Source: Bacteroidales bacterium
GTDB lineage: Bacteria; Bacteroidota; Bacteroidia; Bacteroidales; PUMT01
Assembly: GCA_007132225.1 (NCBI GenBank)
Contig: SLPB01000061.1
Location: 1-61,000, forward strand
Direction: 5' to 3'
Length of the DNA stretch: 61,000 bases
The position numbers were made by a program, and so were the translations under genes. The notes beneath the pieces are model-generated. The model did no database searches. It saw only the letters and a program-made list of their open reading frames with translations, and was not told where the DNA came from. Shown here in pieces: positions 6,650 to 38,424 of this stretch (the first letter of the stretch is position 1; every line of letters begins with the position of its first letter).

Positions 6650-7265
6650 TTTCTTATTAGGTATTTTATTGAGATTTTGATTACCTGGTAATTATTTTTT
6701 GATTTTTAAGCTCCATTTAAAGAACATTGGATTTGCTTTTTTTATTATTGATGCAAATGAGTTATTTTTCTTTGCATGGTTTTTTAAATACAATCAGGGG
6801 GGATATTCTTATTGGATTGAATGGGAATGAAATTCATATCTATGGATGATCACATTTGCAGGTGTTAAAATATCTGGCATGGTTTGATATCTGATATAAA
6901 TTTAATATTGTAAAGATAATTATTTTTTATCTAATGAACAGACCATGTTGATCTGCCTCTCAAGTAAAGACATAACATCAGGTTTTGAACTCTCCTGTTT
7001 GATTATCGGTATATTAGGAAACATCCTGCCTTTACCTTCACCTTAATTAAGGAAAATTTATTTTGTAATTTTACAATATCAGCGGCAGGTAATAAATTAA
7101 TTCCTCTGACTTCGGTTTTAGGAATTAATCATATTTTATACTGATGAGTTACATTATTTTTGCAATAAGTCCACTAATATTTTTACCGGGCGATTATTGC
7201 ACAATCACTGCCGGCTTTAGAGGGAGGTATACTGATTTTATTTTTTTTACAAAACTTACAAAATT
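6650..7265. other. Long AT-rich divergent intergenic region
   Basis: About 616 bases between the divergent thioredoxin lipoprotein gene and the glycogen gene. It must hold promoters for both, but I found no full TTTG/TAnnTTTG pair in either direction. It contains the inverted repeat at 7096-7129. There is no plausible ORF and no recognisable RNA gene. Confidence 0.5.
7096..7129. repeat. 10-base perfect inverted repeat in the leader of the glycogen gene
   Basis: ATTAATTCCT at 7096-7105 is repeated as AGGAATTAAT at 7120-7129 with a 14-base spacer. It lies about 140 bases before the start codon of the synthase-phosphorylase gene. It could be an operator or a leader hairpin; in AT-rich DNA chance is possible. 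Confidence 0.45.
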
Positions 7266-10200
7266 ATGCAAGAAACACTGAATTTGCCGGATTATTTGTT
7301 TGAGGTTAGCTGGGAGGTATGTAACAAAGTCGGAAGCATACATACCCTTTTATCTACAAAGGCGGGTTTTCTGCAAAAGAAGCTGAATAACAATTATATT
7401 CTAATAGGCCCGGATGTATGGAGAGGGGAATCGGAACACCCTGAATTTATTGAAGACAAGGAATTATTTGCCGCATGGCGTCAGGCTGCGGCGATGGATG
7501 GGTTAAGAATACGTACGGGAAGATGGAATGTTGAAGGGCAACCTTTGGCTATCATAATCGATTTCACTCCTTTTATATCTCAAAAGGATCAGATATTCAG
7601 ACAAATGTGGGATAGATTTAAACTGGATTCCATCTCCGGTCAATGGAATTATGTAGAACCTGTTCTTTTTGGCTATGCTGTTGGCCTGCTTATTGAAAGC
7701 TTTGTAAAATTCAATGTTCCCAGCGGAGAGCGTGCCCTTGCCCATTTTCATGAATGGATGACAGGTTCCGGGATATTATACCTGAGGGACCAGGTTCCCG
7801 CCGTGACAACAGTTTTCACTGTCCATGCTACTGTAATGGGCCGGACTCTTGCCTGCAACTATCAACCTCTGTACAGGGATTTTGAGAAATTTGATGCCGA
7901 AGCAAGGGCCAGGGAATTTAATGTTGTTTCAAAGCTTTCCCTGGAAAAACTTTCCGCTGAAAATGCAGATTTATTTACTGCAGTAAGTGAACAAACAGTC
8001 CGTGAATGCAGGCACTTTTTAGGTAAGGAGGCAGATATTTTAACTCCCAACGGAATTGAGGATTATCTTCTGGTTGCCGGAGATCAGTTTGAAAGCAAAC
8101 GTTCTTCTTCCCGGGAAAAGTTGAAAAAAGTAAGTGCTGCCCTCCTGGACAAGGCTCCGGATGATGATGTTATGTTTGTAGCAAATAGCGGAAGGTATGA
8201 GATGAAGAATAAGGGAATTGATGTTTTTATTTATTCTCTTGCAGCCCTGAAGAATAACCCTGCATTAAAGAAAGAAGTGATTGCTTTTATAATGGTGCCT
8301 GCTAACCAGATTGGCCCGCGCAGGGATTTGATAGATTTCCTTGAGGGCAATACAGGTCATCCCGGGGCAGCCGGAAAGGTTCTAACGCATTACCTTCATG
8401 ATCAGGATTATGATCCTGTTGTTCAGAAACTTCAGGCAGCCGGATTAAACAACGATCCCGCAGACAAGGTGAAAGTAATATTTATACCCTGTTACCTTAA
8501 CGGTAATGACGGCATATTCAATGTTCCTTACCATGATTTGCTTGCGGGCATGGATATTACTGTATTTCCCTCCTATTATGAGCCGTGGGGGTATGCACCC
8601 ATGGAAAGCATTGCATTACGTATTCCAACCATCACCACCAGTCTTAACGGTTATGGATTATGGGTTAATGAGCATTTTCATGGTGAAAAGTCCTCTATTG
8701 ATATTATTACCAGAGATGAAGATAATTTTCAGCAGGTAGTGGATCTTATAAGTGAAAAACTTGCCGCCTTCTCAGCTTTGAATGATTCGGAAATTGATGT
8801 TATTAAACAAAATGCCGGAGAGATATCAAAAATAACACTATGGAAGAATTTTATCGTTCATTATTACTCAGCATATGAACTTGCACTGAAAAAGTCTGAA
8901 CCAAGAGTTACAGGGCTTCCTCCCACTGAAATTACAGAAGCTGTTGCCCCCGTTTACAAAGTAAGCAAGGTCCATGAGCCTAAATGGAAAACAATTCTGG
9001 TTCATAAAAACATACCTTCCAGATTAACTGCACTGGAGCAGATATCAGGAAATCTGTGGTGGAGCTGGAACGAAAGGGCCGCAGAGCTTTTTAGCAGTAT
9101 TGACCGGGAACTCTGGAATGAAACCGGTTGCAATCCCGTTTATTTTCTGGAGAAAGTAAGTTATACCAGGTTCATGGAACTTGAAAAGGATGAAGCTTTT
9201 CTTTCTGAGATGGATGAGGTTTATGATGTTTTTCAGAAATACCTCAAAGAACCCTTCAGGGAAGGATCTCAGGTCGCATATTTCAGTATGGAGTACGGAC
9301 TTCATTCAAGTATCCCGATATACAGCGGTGGACTTGGTGTACTGGCAGGTGACTATCTCAAGGAAGCCAGTGATTCGAAAGTAGATATGGTGGCTGTGGG
9401 ATTATTGTATAAATACGGGTATTTTAAGCAGCAACTGGCGGCAGGTGGTGAGCAGATAGCTACCTATGAACCCACAAATTTTGCTCATTTGCCGGCAAGG
9501 ATTGTAAGGAATGACGATGGCGATCCGCTGACAATCAGCATTGCCTTTCCCGGCCGGAAAGTCAAAGCCCGTATATGGAGGATCGATGTAGGAAGAATCC
9601 CCCTGTTTCTTCTTGATACTGATATTGAAGATAATCAGGATCATGACAGGAGTATCACTCACCATTTATATGGAGGTGACTGGGAAAACAGGTTCAAACA
9701 GGAGATGCTCCTTGGTATCGGAGGTATTAGAGCATTGAAGGTTATGGATGTTGATCCTCATCTTTTCCACTGTAATGAGGGTCATGCAGCTTTTATCGGG
9801 ATTGAAAGGCTAAACCAGTACATTAATGAACAAAAACTTATATTTTCCCAGGCTCTTGAAGTTGTAAGAGCCTCGACACTGTTTACCACTCATACTCCTG
9901 TGCCGGCAGGACATGACTCTTTTGACGAAAATTTACTGCGCACCTATATTGCTCATTATCCAGTAAGGCTCAATATTAGCTGGACCCAGTTTATGAATCT
10001 CGGGAAAATCCACCCTGAAGATCCAAATGAGAACTTTTCCATGTCCTACCTGGCCGCCAACCTTTCTCAGGAGATAAACGGGGTAAGCCGTCTGCACGGA
10101 AAGGTAAGCAGGCATATCTTCAATGATCTCTGGAAGGGATACCTGCCCGGAGAACTGCATATTGATTACGTAACCAATGGCATTCATCACGACACATGGA

Positions 10201-11513
10201 CATCAGGTGTTTGGAAGGATTTTTACCGCAAGGTCCTCGGAGAGGATTATGTGAAAACACAACACTTGTCCGCAACCTGGAAACCTGTTCTAAAAGCAGA
10301 TGATTCAGAAATCTGGAAGATCCGTCAATTACTTCGCAGGAACATGATTGATTATATAATGGAGCGAACCCGTGAAATATGGATAAAAAAACATGAAAGT
10401 CCGCGTTATTTTCTCAACATAAGGGAAAGGCTTAATCCTGAATACCTGACTATTGGGTTTGCCCGGCGTTTTGCTACATACAAAAGGGCCCAACTTCTTT
10501 TCAGGGATATCGAAAGACTCTCTGCCATAGTCAATCATTCCGAAAGACCGGTTCAATTCCTCTTTGCAGGCAAGGCCCATCCCAACGATAAACTGGGACA
10601 GGACCTTATGAAGTATATCGTGGGAATATCCAAAAGGCAGGAATTTTCCGGGAAGATAATTTTTCTTCAAAACTACGATATGGATTTGGCCAAGGTGCTG
10701 GTAAAGGGTGTGGATGTATGGCTAAATACACCTACACGTCCGCTCGAAGCCTCGGGAACAAGCGGCATAAAAGCTGTTATGAACGGCGTGCTTAATTTCA
10801 GTGTCCTTGACGGATGGTGGTTAGAAGGATACCGATCCGGTTCAGGCTGGGCACTTCCGGAAGAAAGGATATATGATAATCAGGAATTCCAGGATGAACT
10901 CGATGCAGATACCATCTATAATATAATTGAAGAAGAGATAGCTCCGGCCTTTTATAATCGAAATAGCAAGGGTGTGCCCGAAAAGTGGGTGCAGATGATT
11001 AAAAATTCGATAAGCGGCATTGCTCCCATGTTTACTATGCGGCGGATGCTGAACGATTATATTAAAAAGTTTTATAACAAACAGAGCAGGCGGTTACTTA
11101 GAATGAAGGAGAATGATTTTGCACTTGCCAGGCAGCTGTCATCCTGGAAAAGCCGGTTTTGCCTTAACTGGGATAGCATTGAAGTTGTTAGCCTGACCTA
11201 TCCTGAAACTGATGGTAAAGTTTTAATGATAGGACACGAACTCAGCGGTGAGCTTGTGCTTGATCTTAAGGATATTCACGCTGCTTCAGTCGGTGTGGAG
11301 CAGGTGGTGGCAGATATTCATCCCGTTAGTGGTGAGACAAATATTCAGGATGTACAGGAACTTCAGATAATTAGGAGCCATGGCAGTATTGTTCATTACC
11401 GGGTGCAGATATATCCTACACGTGCCGGGGCTTTTCATTATGGCATACGAATCTATCCAAAACATCCTGAACTGCCTCACAGGCAGGATATGGGTTTTGT
11501 GAAATGGATATAG
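7266..11513 (+). CDS. Fused glycogen synthase (GT3) and alpha-glucan phosphorylase (GT35)
   Basis: One continuous 1415-residue frame joins two enzymes. Residues 1 to about 555 resemble the eukaryote-type GT3 glycogen synthase: FEVSWEVCNKVGSIHTLLSTK near the start, and the E-x7-E block YYEPWGYAPME near 437. Residues from about 582 carry a DUF3417 segment (NLWWSWNERAAELF) and then a bacterial alpha-glucan phosphorylase. The PLP-lysine region ASGTSGIKAVMNG is near 1162, followed by LDGWWLEGY. GT3 enzymes extend alpha-1,4-glucan from a sugar nucleotide and GT35 enzymes release glucose-1-phosphate, so the polypeptide appears to both build and degrade glycogen. All motifs look intact. No branching or debranching gene is nearby. 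Cytoplasmic; no signal peptide. Confidence 0.93.
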   Translation: MQETLNLPDYLFEVSWEVCNKVGSIHTLLSTKAGFLQKKLNNNYILIGPDVWRGESEHPEFIEDKELFAAWRQAAAMDGLRIRTGRWNVEGQPLAIIIDFTPFISQKDQIFRQMWDRFKLDSISGQWNYVEPVLFGYAVGLLIESFVKFNVPSGERALAHFHEWMTGSGILYLRDQVPAVTTVFTVHATVMGRTLACNYQPLYRDFEKFDAEARAREFNVVSKLSLEKLSAENADLFTAVSEQTVRECRHFLGKEADILTPNGIEDYLLVAGDQFESKRSSSREKLKKVSAALLDKAPDDDVMFVANSGRYEMKNKGIDVFIYSLAALKNNPALKKEVIAFIMVPANQIGPRRDLIDFLEGNTGHPGAAGKVLTHYLHDQDYDPVVQKLQAAGLNNDPADKVKVIFIPCYLNGNDGIFNVPYHDLLAGMDITVFPSYYEPWGYAPMESIALRIPTITTSLNGYGLWVNEHFHGEKSSIDIITRDEDNFQQVVDLISEKLAAFSALNDSEIDVIKQNAGEISKITLWKNFIVHYYSAYELALKKSEPRVTGLPPTEITEAVAPVYKVSKVHEPKWKTILVHKNIPSRLTALEQISGNLWWSWNERAAELFSSIDRELWNETGCNPVYFLEKVSYTRFMELEKDEAFLSEMDEVYDVFQKYLKEPFREGSQVAYFSMEYGLHSSIPIYSGGLGVLAGDYLKEASDSKVDMVAVGLLYKYGYFKQQLAAGGEQIATYEPTNFAHLPARIVRNDDGDPLTISIAFPGRKVKARIWRIDVGRIPLFLLDTDIEDNQDHDRSITHHLYGGDWENRFKQEMLLGIGGIRALKVMDVDPHLFHCNEGHAAFIGIERLNQYINEQKLIFSQALEVVRASTLFTTHTPVPAGHDSFDENLLRTYIAHYPVRLNISWTQFMNLGKIHPEDPNENFSMSYLAANLSQEINGVSRLHGKVSRHIFNDLWKGYLPGELHIDYVTNGIHHDTWTSGVWKDFYRKVLGEDYVKTQHLSATWKPVLKADDSEIWKIRQLLRRNMIDYIMERTREIWIKKHESPRYFLNIRERLNPEYLTIGFARRFATYKRAQLLFRDIERLSAIVNHSERPVQFLFAGKAHPNDKLGQDLMKYIVGISKRQEFSGKIIFLQNYDMDLAKVLVKGVDVWLNTPTRPLEASGTSGIKAVMNGVLNFSVLDGWWLEGYRSGSGWALPEERIYDNQEFQDELDADTIYNIIEEEIAPAFYNRNSKGVPEKWVQMIKNSISGIAPMFTMRRMLNDYIKKFYNKQSRRLLRMKENDFALARQLSSWKSRFCLNWDSIEVVSLTYPETDGKVLMIGHELSGELVLDLKDIHAASVGVEQVVADIHPVSGETNIQDVQELQIIRSHGSIVHYRVQIYPTRAGAFHYGIRIYPKHPELPHRQDMGFVKWI

Positions 11514-36779: not shown

Positions 36780-36867
36780 TTGCCGTGTCTGAGGCTTTAT
36801 AAGGTTGCTGCACAGATTATTAGTCATTAATCAGATAGGTTGTCATTATCACAAATTAATTACGCCA

Positions 36868-38424
36868 ATGAAGCAAATAACGATATTGTGGGCTGATGAT
36901 GAAATAGATCTTCTCAAACCGAATATTATCTTTCTTGAGTCAAAAGGATATAAAGTTCTGACCTCAACAAACGGGCAGGATGCCATTGAGCTGGTGCAGT
37001 CACATAGACCTGACCTGGTTTTTCTTGATGAATACATGCCGGGTTTAAGCGGATTGGAGACCCTGGAAATAATAAAAAGCTCTTTTCCTTCACTTCCGGT
37101 GGTTATGATTACCAAAAGTGAAGAGGAGGATATAATGGAAGAAGCAATTGGTTCAAAAATTTCCGATTACCTTATTAAACCGGTGCACCCAAAACAAATA
37201 CTGCTGTCTATAAAGAAGAATATTGATACCCGCCGGCTTGTAACTCAAAAAATTACCTCTTCCTACCAGGTTGAGTTTGGGAATTTAACCATGGCAATAA
37301 ATACTGCCGCCTCTTTTGAGGACTGGGTGGATGTATACAGGAGGCTGGTTTATTGGGATATGGAGCTGGAAAACTCGGTAGATACCGGAATGAACGAGGT
37401 AATAGCCCAGCAGAAGCATGAGGCAAATAATGAATTTGCAAAATTTATTAAATCAAATTATTCTGACTGGTTTAAGGATAACCCGGACAGGCCCCTTCTT
37501 TCTCATAATATTTTACCACAAAGAATATTTCCTCTTCTCAAACAATCGGAGAAGGTTGTTTTCATAATGATTGACAATCTTAGATATGACCAGTTAAAGT
37601 CTATTCTTCCCGATATAAGGGAGTATTACCAGGTTGAAAGGGAAGAGCTTTACTGCAGCATTTTGCCAACTGTAACCCAGTTTGCCAGGAATGCAGTTTT
37701 CGGTGGGTTGATGCCACAGGATATTGAGAAACTTTATCCGCAGCTATGGAGCGATGAGGATGATGAAGGCAGTAAAAACCTGAATGAAAAAGAGCTGCTT
37801 GTTAAGCAGCTTAAAAGGACGGGAAATGATCCAAATATCTTTTATGAGAAGGTGGTTAACAGAAAAAGCGGGAAGAAACTCTCAGAGAATATTTCATCGG
37901 TCATTAATAATACTTTAACTGTCCTTGTTTATAATTTTGTTGACATGCTTTCCCATGCCCGTACTGAAATGGATGTAATAAAGGAGCTTGCCAGCGATGA
38001 TGCAGCTTACCGGTCCCTGACCCGTTCATGGTTCCGCCATTCATACCTGCTGGATTTGTTAAAAGAACTCTCTGATAAAGACGTAAAAGTAGTTATTACT
38101 TCAGATCATGGATCGGTAAAGGTGGATAATCCCATTAAAGTTATAGGCGACCGGCATACTACAACCAATTTACGATATAAGCAGGGTAAGAATCTTAATT
38201 ATAATCCCAGGCAGGTATTTGAAATACAAATTCCCTCGAGTATACATCTTCCGAGAACAAATGTTAGTTCCACCTACATTTTTGCTACTGGCGGTGATTT
38301 CTTTGTCTATCCAAATAATTATAACTATTATGCCAATTATTACAACAATACATTTCAGCATGGAGGAGTATCCCTGGAGGAGATGCTGGTGCCCTGTATT
38401 TTTCTTGAACCTCTGAAGAGATGA
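36868..38424 (+). CDS. porX: PorX: response regulator with PglZ phosphodiesterase domain
   Basis: A 518-residue protein, matching PorX in length. The receiver domain (1-125) opens ILWADDEIDLL, has the phospho-acceptor Asp54 in VFLDEYMPG and the conserved Thr-Lys in MITKS. A helical linker precedes the PglZ/alkaline-phosphatase-like domain (about 200-518) with metal-site motifs MIDNLRYD, TSDHGS and GDRHTTTNLRY. PorX regulates type IX secretion genes with the kinase PorY and sigma factor SigP; its PglZ domain has been reported to cleave oligonucleotides. The track start at 36805 adds 21 unrelated residues; MKQITILW is the family start. The stop overlaps tsaE by four bases. Confidence 0.95.
   Translation: MKQITILWADDEIDLLKPNIIFLESKGYKVLTSTNGQDAIELVQSHRPDLVFLDEYMPGLSGLETLEIIKSSFPSLPVVMITKSEEEDIMEEAIGSKISDYLIKPVHPKQILLSIKKNIDTRRLVTQKITSSYQVEFGNLTMAINTAASFEDWVDVYRRLVYWDMELENSVDTGMNEVIAQQKHEANNEFAKFIKSNYSDWFKDNPDRPLLSHNILPQRIFPLLKQSEKVVFIMIDNLRYDQLKSILPDIREYYQVEREELYCSILPTVTQFARNAVFGGLMPQDIEKLYPQLWSDEDDEGSKNLNEKELLVKQLKRTGNDPNIFYEKVVNRKSGKKLSENISSVINNTLTVLVYNFVDMLSHARTEMDVIKELASDDAAYRSLTRSWFRHSYLLDLLKELSDKDVKVVITSDHGSVKVDNPIKVIGDRHTTTNLRYKQGKNLNYNPRQVFEIQIPSSIHLPRTNVSSTYIFATGGDFFVYPNNYNYYANYYNNTFQHGGVSLEEMLVPCIFLEPLKR

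Follow-up and report, generated by a model that had tools for sequence, protein, structure and literature searches.

A single protein with both glycogen phosphorylase and glycogen synthase activities is catalogued in KEGG as one entry, K16153 (glycogen phosphorylase/synthase, EC 2.4.1.1 and 2.4.1.11) (PMC8307300), and this number has been used elsewhere (PMC11093988, PMC10687571). Parts of a 2024 review describe the retention of a GlgA-GT5 fragment by Bacteroidetes and suggest that the GT3 synthase of this group derives from DPANN archaea; the fusion is unmentioned in those parts (PMC11046441). A review of gut bacteria states that Bacteroidetes are without GlgC and may use enzymes closer to the human ones (PMC10395257). 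An earlier note on the DNA examined here had mentioned long Bacteroidota proteins annotated as alpha-glucan phosphorylases and knew of no study of the combined enzyme. Its mention of such proteins agreed with K16153 and with the wide occurrence of the fusion in Bacteroidales, and no experimental study of the fusion was found in the literature searched, which excludes most subscription journals. The fusion is already named and catalogued.

The window is the whole stretch of Bacteroidales DNA that was analysed, 61,000 nucleotides in length. It contains a frame that starts with ATG and runs for 1415 codons with zero internal stops. The features of this frame are as follows.

7266-11513, + strand: fused gene for a 1415-aa protein, in which a GT3 glycogen synthase is followed by a GT35 alpha-glucan phosphorylase
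7293-8912, + strand: GT3 half, approximately residues 10-549 (boundary at about 550), from PF05693, alignments and structural matches
8580-8582 and 8604-8606, + strand: codons of the E-x7-E pair of the GT3 half, E439 and E447, respectively
8913-8996, + strand: linker, residues 550-577, with low conservation and a pLDDT below 50 at residues 558-577
9012-9314, + strand: DUF3417 (PF11897), residues 583-683, from Pfam (E 1.3e-32)
9273-11081, + strand: GT35 phosphorylase core, residues 670-1272, from TIGR02094 and the match to PDB 9l6i
10770-10772, + strand: codon of the PLP lysine, K1169
11082-11510, + strand: C-terminal remainder of the GT35 half (residues 1273-1415), aligned with 9l6i to its end

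Pfam analysis of the fused protein detected Glycogen_syn (PF05693) starting at residue 13 (E 2.2e-95; 321.1 bits against a curated cut-off of 27) and Phosphorylase at residues 833-1184 (E 6.8e-29). NCBIfam TIGR02094 matched residues 670-1272 with a score of 841.2 bits (cut-off, 191.7), and the full profile, 1-600, was covered. DUF3417 is the N-terminal part of TIGR02094-type phosphorylases, and with this domain the phosphorylase region spans approximately residues 580-1415. The GT3 half aligned with yeast Gsy2p, human GYS1 and the C. elegans synthase, and its predicted structure (pTM 0.91) had the human, worm and yeast GT3 synthases as best structural matches, with GT5 enzymes far behind. In the alignment, E163, H187, R193, R310, K316, E439, Y443 and E447 corresponded to E169, H193, R199, R320, K326, E509, Y513 and E517 of Gsy2p; the E-x7-E pair (E439/E447) and the H, R, R and K positions (H187, R193, R310 and K316) were all present. 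The C-terminal 849 residues gave an end-to-end match of 971 bits to 9l6i, the solved structure of an 'alpha-glucan family phosphorylase' that is a protein on its own. Residues R1068, K1073, H876, N971, E1161 and K1169 aligned with R569, K574, H377, N484, E672 and K680 of muscle phosphorylase, with the PLP lysine and the phosphate-site residues matching those of the animal enzyme. The functions attributed to the matched GT3 and GT35 residues, as well as some of the residue numbers, follow what is generally known of the solved enzymes. The profile matches and alignments bore out the proposal of the earlier note that one chain combines a GT3 synthase of eukaryotic type with a complete GT35 phosphorylase, the E-x7-E motif and PLP lysine being intact. 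The combination that defines K16153, GT3 and GT35 in one chain, was found in this protein.

The draft genome comprises 181 contigs and some Bacteroidales have the halves as adjacent genes in the same order, which could point to an artefact of assembly or annotation that joined neighbouring genes. A search of 41 genomes, with that of the window among them, recovered the same uninterrupted frame, however, from 29, representing 19 family groups, with four of these frames truncated at one end; the remaining genomes had two neighbouring genes (n = 5), the phosphorylase only (n = 1), a fragment (n = 1) or nothing (n = 5). Genomes with the uninterrupted frame include one that consists of a single contig (G692). 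The strongest matches listed from an order sample of 393 genomes were all single, stop-free frames of approximately 1400 codons. The best 80 loci from a named genome collection belonged to Bacteroidales or to unplaced Bacteroidetes/Bacteroidota, with one titled just 'uncultured bacterium', and included Alistipes, Rikenellaceae, Muribaculum, Odoribacteraceae and Lentimicrobium. Matches listed outside the order in a phylum-wide sample covered one half, chiefly the phosphorylase. An artefact has a negligible probability and was rejected on the basis of the same fusion in independently assembled relatives; the join at approximately 8.9-9.0 kb, where the earlier note had envisaged a possible assembly join, is real. 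The fusion is typical of Bacteroidales, an ancient trait that extends across the order.

In the two-gene genomes that were read, the halves occur in the same order with a stop and a short spacer between them. Classification of the stops in genomes G017 and G036 as pseudogene mutations was rejected, as the DNA contained ordinary two-gene forms in which the stop sits between the domains. A tree of the GT35 half placed the sampled two-gene forms in one clade with a support of 100/100, which argues for a single event, either a fusion or a fission. Repeated independent joining or splitting was rejected, since one change suffices for this clade. The two-gene clade was nested among fused forms in a quick tree, and the deep order was open in a careful tree. 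Forcing the fused forms together lowered the likelihood by 5.7 (AU p = 0.061), a value at which both fission and an ancestral two-gene state are tenable. A separate observation was made for the His beside the conserved Glu of the AHFHEW motif, which was Asn or Asp in 6 of 7 two-gene forms (L126-L128, L130, L131 and L133) and His in all of the fused forms aligned.

Examination of gene context indicated that, in more than half of the best 80 named loci, the fused gene shares its locus and strand with genes that encode GDE (glycogen debranching enzyme), a GT4 transferase and a GH57 protein, mostly just upstream of the fused gene and, in Alistipes-like loci, downstream. All five same-genus genomes with enough contig had two redoxin genes followed by GDE-GT4-GH57-fusion. 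The window keeps the redoxins and the fusion without the three intervening genes, and two features precede the fused gene.

6650-7265, no strand: spacer from the redoxin gene to the fused gene, where same-genus relatives have GDE, GT4 and GH57 (approximately 5 kb)
7060-7072, + strand: promoter-like ATTTTGTAATTTT, resembling ATTTTGTACTTTT, which three relatives carry 83-111 bases upstream of GDE

The short match between these sequences suggested that ATTTTGTAATTTT is possibly a retained operon promoter. No orthologues of GDE, GT4 or GH57 were detected in the window by tblastn, with weak GT4 matches falling within the fused gene, and the assembly (draft, 181 contigs), for which completeness is rated at 96%, yielded neither GDE nor GH57. 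A GDE match over the cut-off was present in 11 of the 13 genomes of the genus. A true deletion would be the simplest reading of this absence, with assembly loss a possible one. GalU is encoded on contig 93 of the genome, and GlgB and GlgX are encoded together on contig 138. Acquisition of GlgX as a replacement for the lost GDE was rejected, since GlgX exceeded the cut-off in 9 of the 13 genomes of the genus. No GlgC-type protein was detected among the PF00483 matches tested in the genome. Two loci of the same genome (G000) were recorded: the contig 138 cluster (L151), which encodes a maltokinase-like protein and TreZ besides GlgB and GlgX and forms part of another alpha-glucan/trehalose system, and an open frame on contig 98 (L152, 4574-5413) for a 279-aa protein that corresponds to the N-terminal half of a GT5 glycogen synthase and has no C-terminal domain. 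Within the window, positions 36805-38424 (+ strand) encode a response-regulator receiver domain joined with a PglZ domain in one protein.

Within the genus, purifying selection was evident for both halves. The close pair L011/L012 gave dN and dS values of 0.042 and 0.329 for GT3 and 0.022 and 0.299 for GT35, and the evolutionary rate was higher for GT3 than for GT35. The GT35 catalytic residues checked were invariant in 106 of 106 fused proteins, whereas GT3 catalytic residues had been lost in three lineages in which the GT35 half was intact. The changes were E439D, R193C and K316R in L008 (G001, from the window's own genus), R310P and K316R in L171 (G649) and E439Q in L081, L085 and L098. In L132 (G019), the GDE-GT4-GH57-GT35 order was retained, but the place of the fused gene was taken by a phosphorylase that has no GT3 half. 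These losses mark the synthase half, rather than the phosphorylase, as dispensable in some species. The unequal fate of the halves and the faster change of GT3 would also be expected of a protein that is mainly a phosphorylase, with a GT3 half of little or no activity serving as a glucan-binding or regulatory module. This is an unlikely description of the window protein, which is outside the decayed set and has both catalytic sets intact: the checked GT3 catalytic residues are retained, purifying selection acts on the GT3 half and the genome yielded no second glycogen synthase of full length, just the N-terminal GT5 fragment and sub-cut-off matches.

Eukaryotic GT3 synthases use an arginine cluster for activation by glucose-6-phosphate (G6P). 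This cluster was absent from the GT3 half in the alignment, the region reading FSALNDSEIDVIKQNAGEISK with zero arginines; the cluster was regarded as a subfamily trait that is unnecessary for GT3 membership. Segment 362-437 of Gsy2p, which includes helices used for the tetramer, was reduced from approximately 76 to 19 residues. As these eukaryotic regulatory parts are missing, control of the fused enzyme is probably exerted via substrate levels and transcription. The presence of GalU, the failure to find a GlgC-type protein and the restriction of the GT5 synthase to an N-terminal fragment point to UDP-glucose as the donor of the GT3 half.

Overall, one frame that holds two folds with complete catalytic sets, purifying selection on each half and a genomic association with alpha-glucan genes, debranching ones included, suggested that the fused protein is probably a bifunctional enzyme of alpha-glucan (glycogen) turnover. 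Against this reading are the decay or absence of the synthase half in some lineages and the absence of the usual GDE-GT4-GH57 partners from the window genome. From the sequences, we infer that the GT3 half most likely transfers glucose from UDP-glucose onto non-reducing ends of alpha-1,4-glucan and that the GT35 half most likely phosphorolyses glucose off non-reducing ends, yielding glucose-1-phosphate. A flexible linker between the halves would result in one-to-one production and would hold both on the same glycogen particle, which is the putative benefit of the tether.

The mean identity to the family was 23% for the linker, 50% for GT3 and 60% for the GT35 core, and the low-pLDDT residues of the linker are predicted to be disordered. 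A model of the fused protein, limited to 1200 residues (pTM 0.81), contained little information on the relative orientation of the halves. The poor conservation and predicted disorder of the linker are more in keeping with a flexible tether than with a rigid channel, and flexible tethering on one glycogen particle appears likelier than the substrate channelling that the earlier note had suggested. Neither half supplies a small-molecule substrate for the other, as conversion of glucose-1-phosphate to UDP-glucose requires GalU first. Functional coupling, whether by channelling of intermediates or by control of one active site through the other, akin to the mutual regulation also raised in the earlier note, could explain the long retention of the fusion across most of the order and the single change separating fused and two-gene forms on the tree, but is improbable for a weakly conserved and disordered linker, for opposite reactions with the polymer as the sole thing in common and in view of a whole clade that gets by with two proteins. 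A slightly smaller chance is given to the fusion being a self-contained switch of glycogen turnover. Each active site would then respond to the state of its partner, which would curb futile cycling in a way unlike control by phosphorylation and G6P, and the arrangement would have been undone once in the separate-gene clade.

With a bifunctional, flexibly tethered enzyme as the preferred reading, most of Bacteroidales appears to build and degrade glycogen with one uncharacterised protein. The two-gene clade and the lineages with a decayed or missing synthase half provide a natural experiment on the joining of opposite reactions in one chain. New in this analysis are the single two-gene clade, the unequal halves, the gene context and the missing eukaryotic GT3 regulatory parts.

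Comparison with known systems indicated that K16153 comprises the same activity pair in a single protein with no known difference, the two being equated via the entry name and EC numbers. The GT3 half has its family, fold and catalytic residues in common with the animal and fungal enzymes (Gsy2p and GYS1), but is without the arginine cluster and most of the insert and is fused to a phosphorylase. The GT35 half shares conserved active-site residues and an end-to-end match with TIGR02094-type phosphorylases that have DUF3417 (PDB 9l6i and 20yr); those proteins are stand-alone, with 852-872 residues as deposited, whereas the phosphorylase is here fused behind a synthase. TreS-maltokinase (TreS-Mak/Pep2) of the GlgE pathway, as presented in parts of the 2024 review, likewise has two alpha-glucan enzymes in one chain (PMC11046441), but its partners catalyse consecutive steps, while the GT3-GT35 fusion combines opposite reactions on one polymer.
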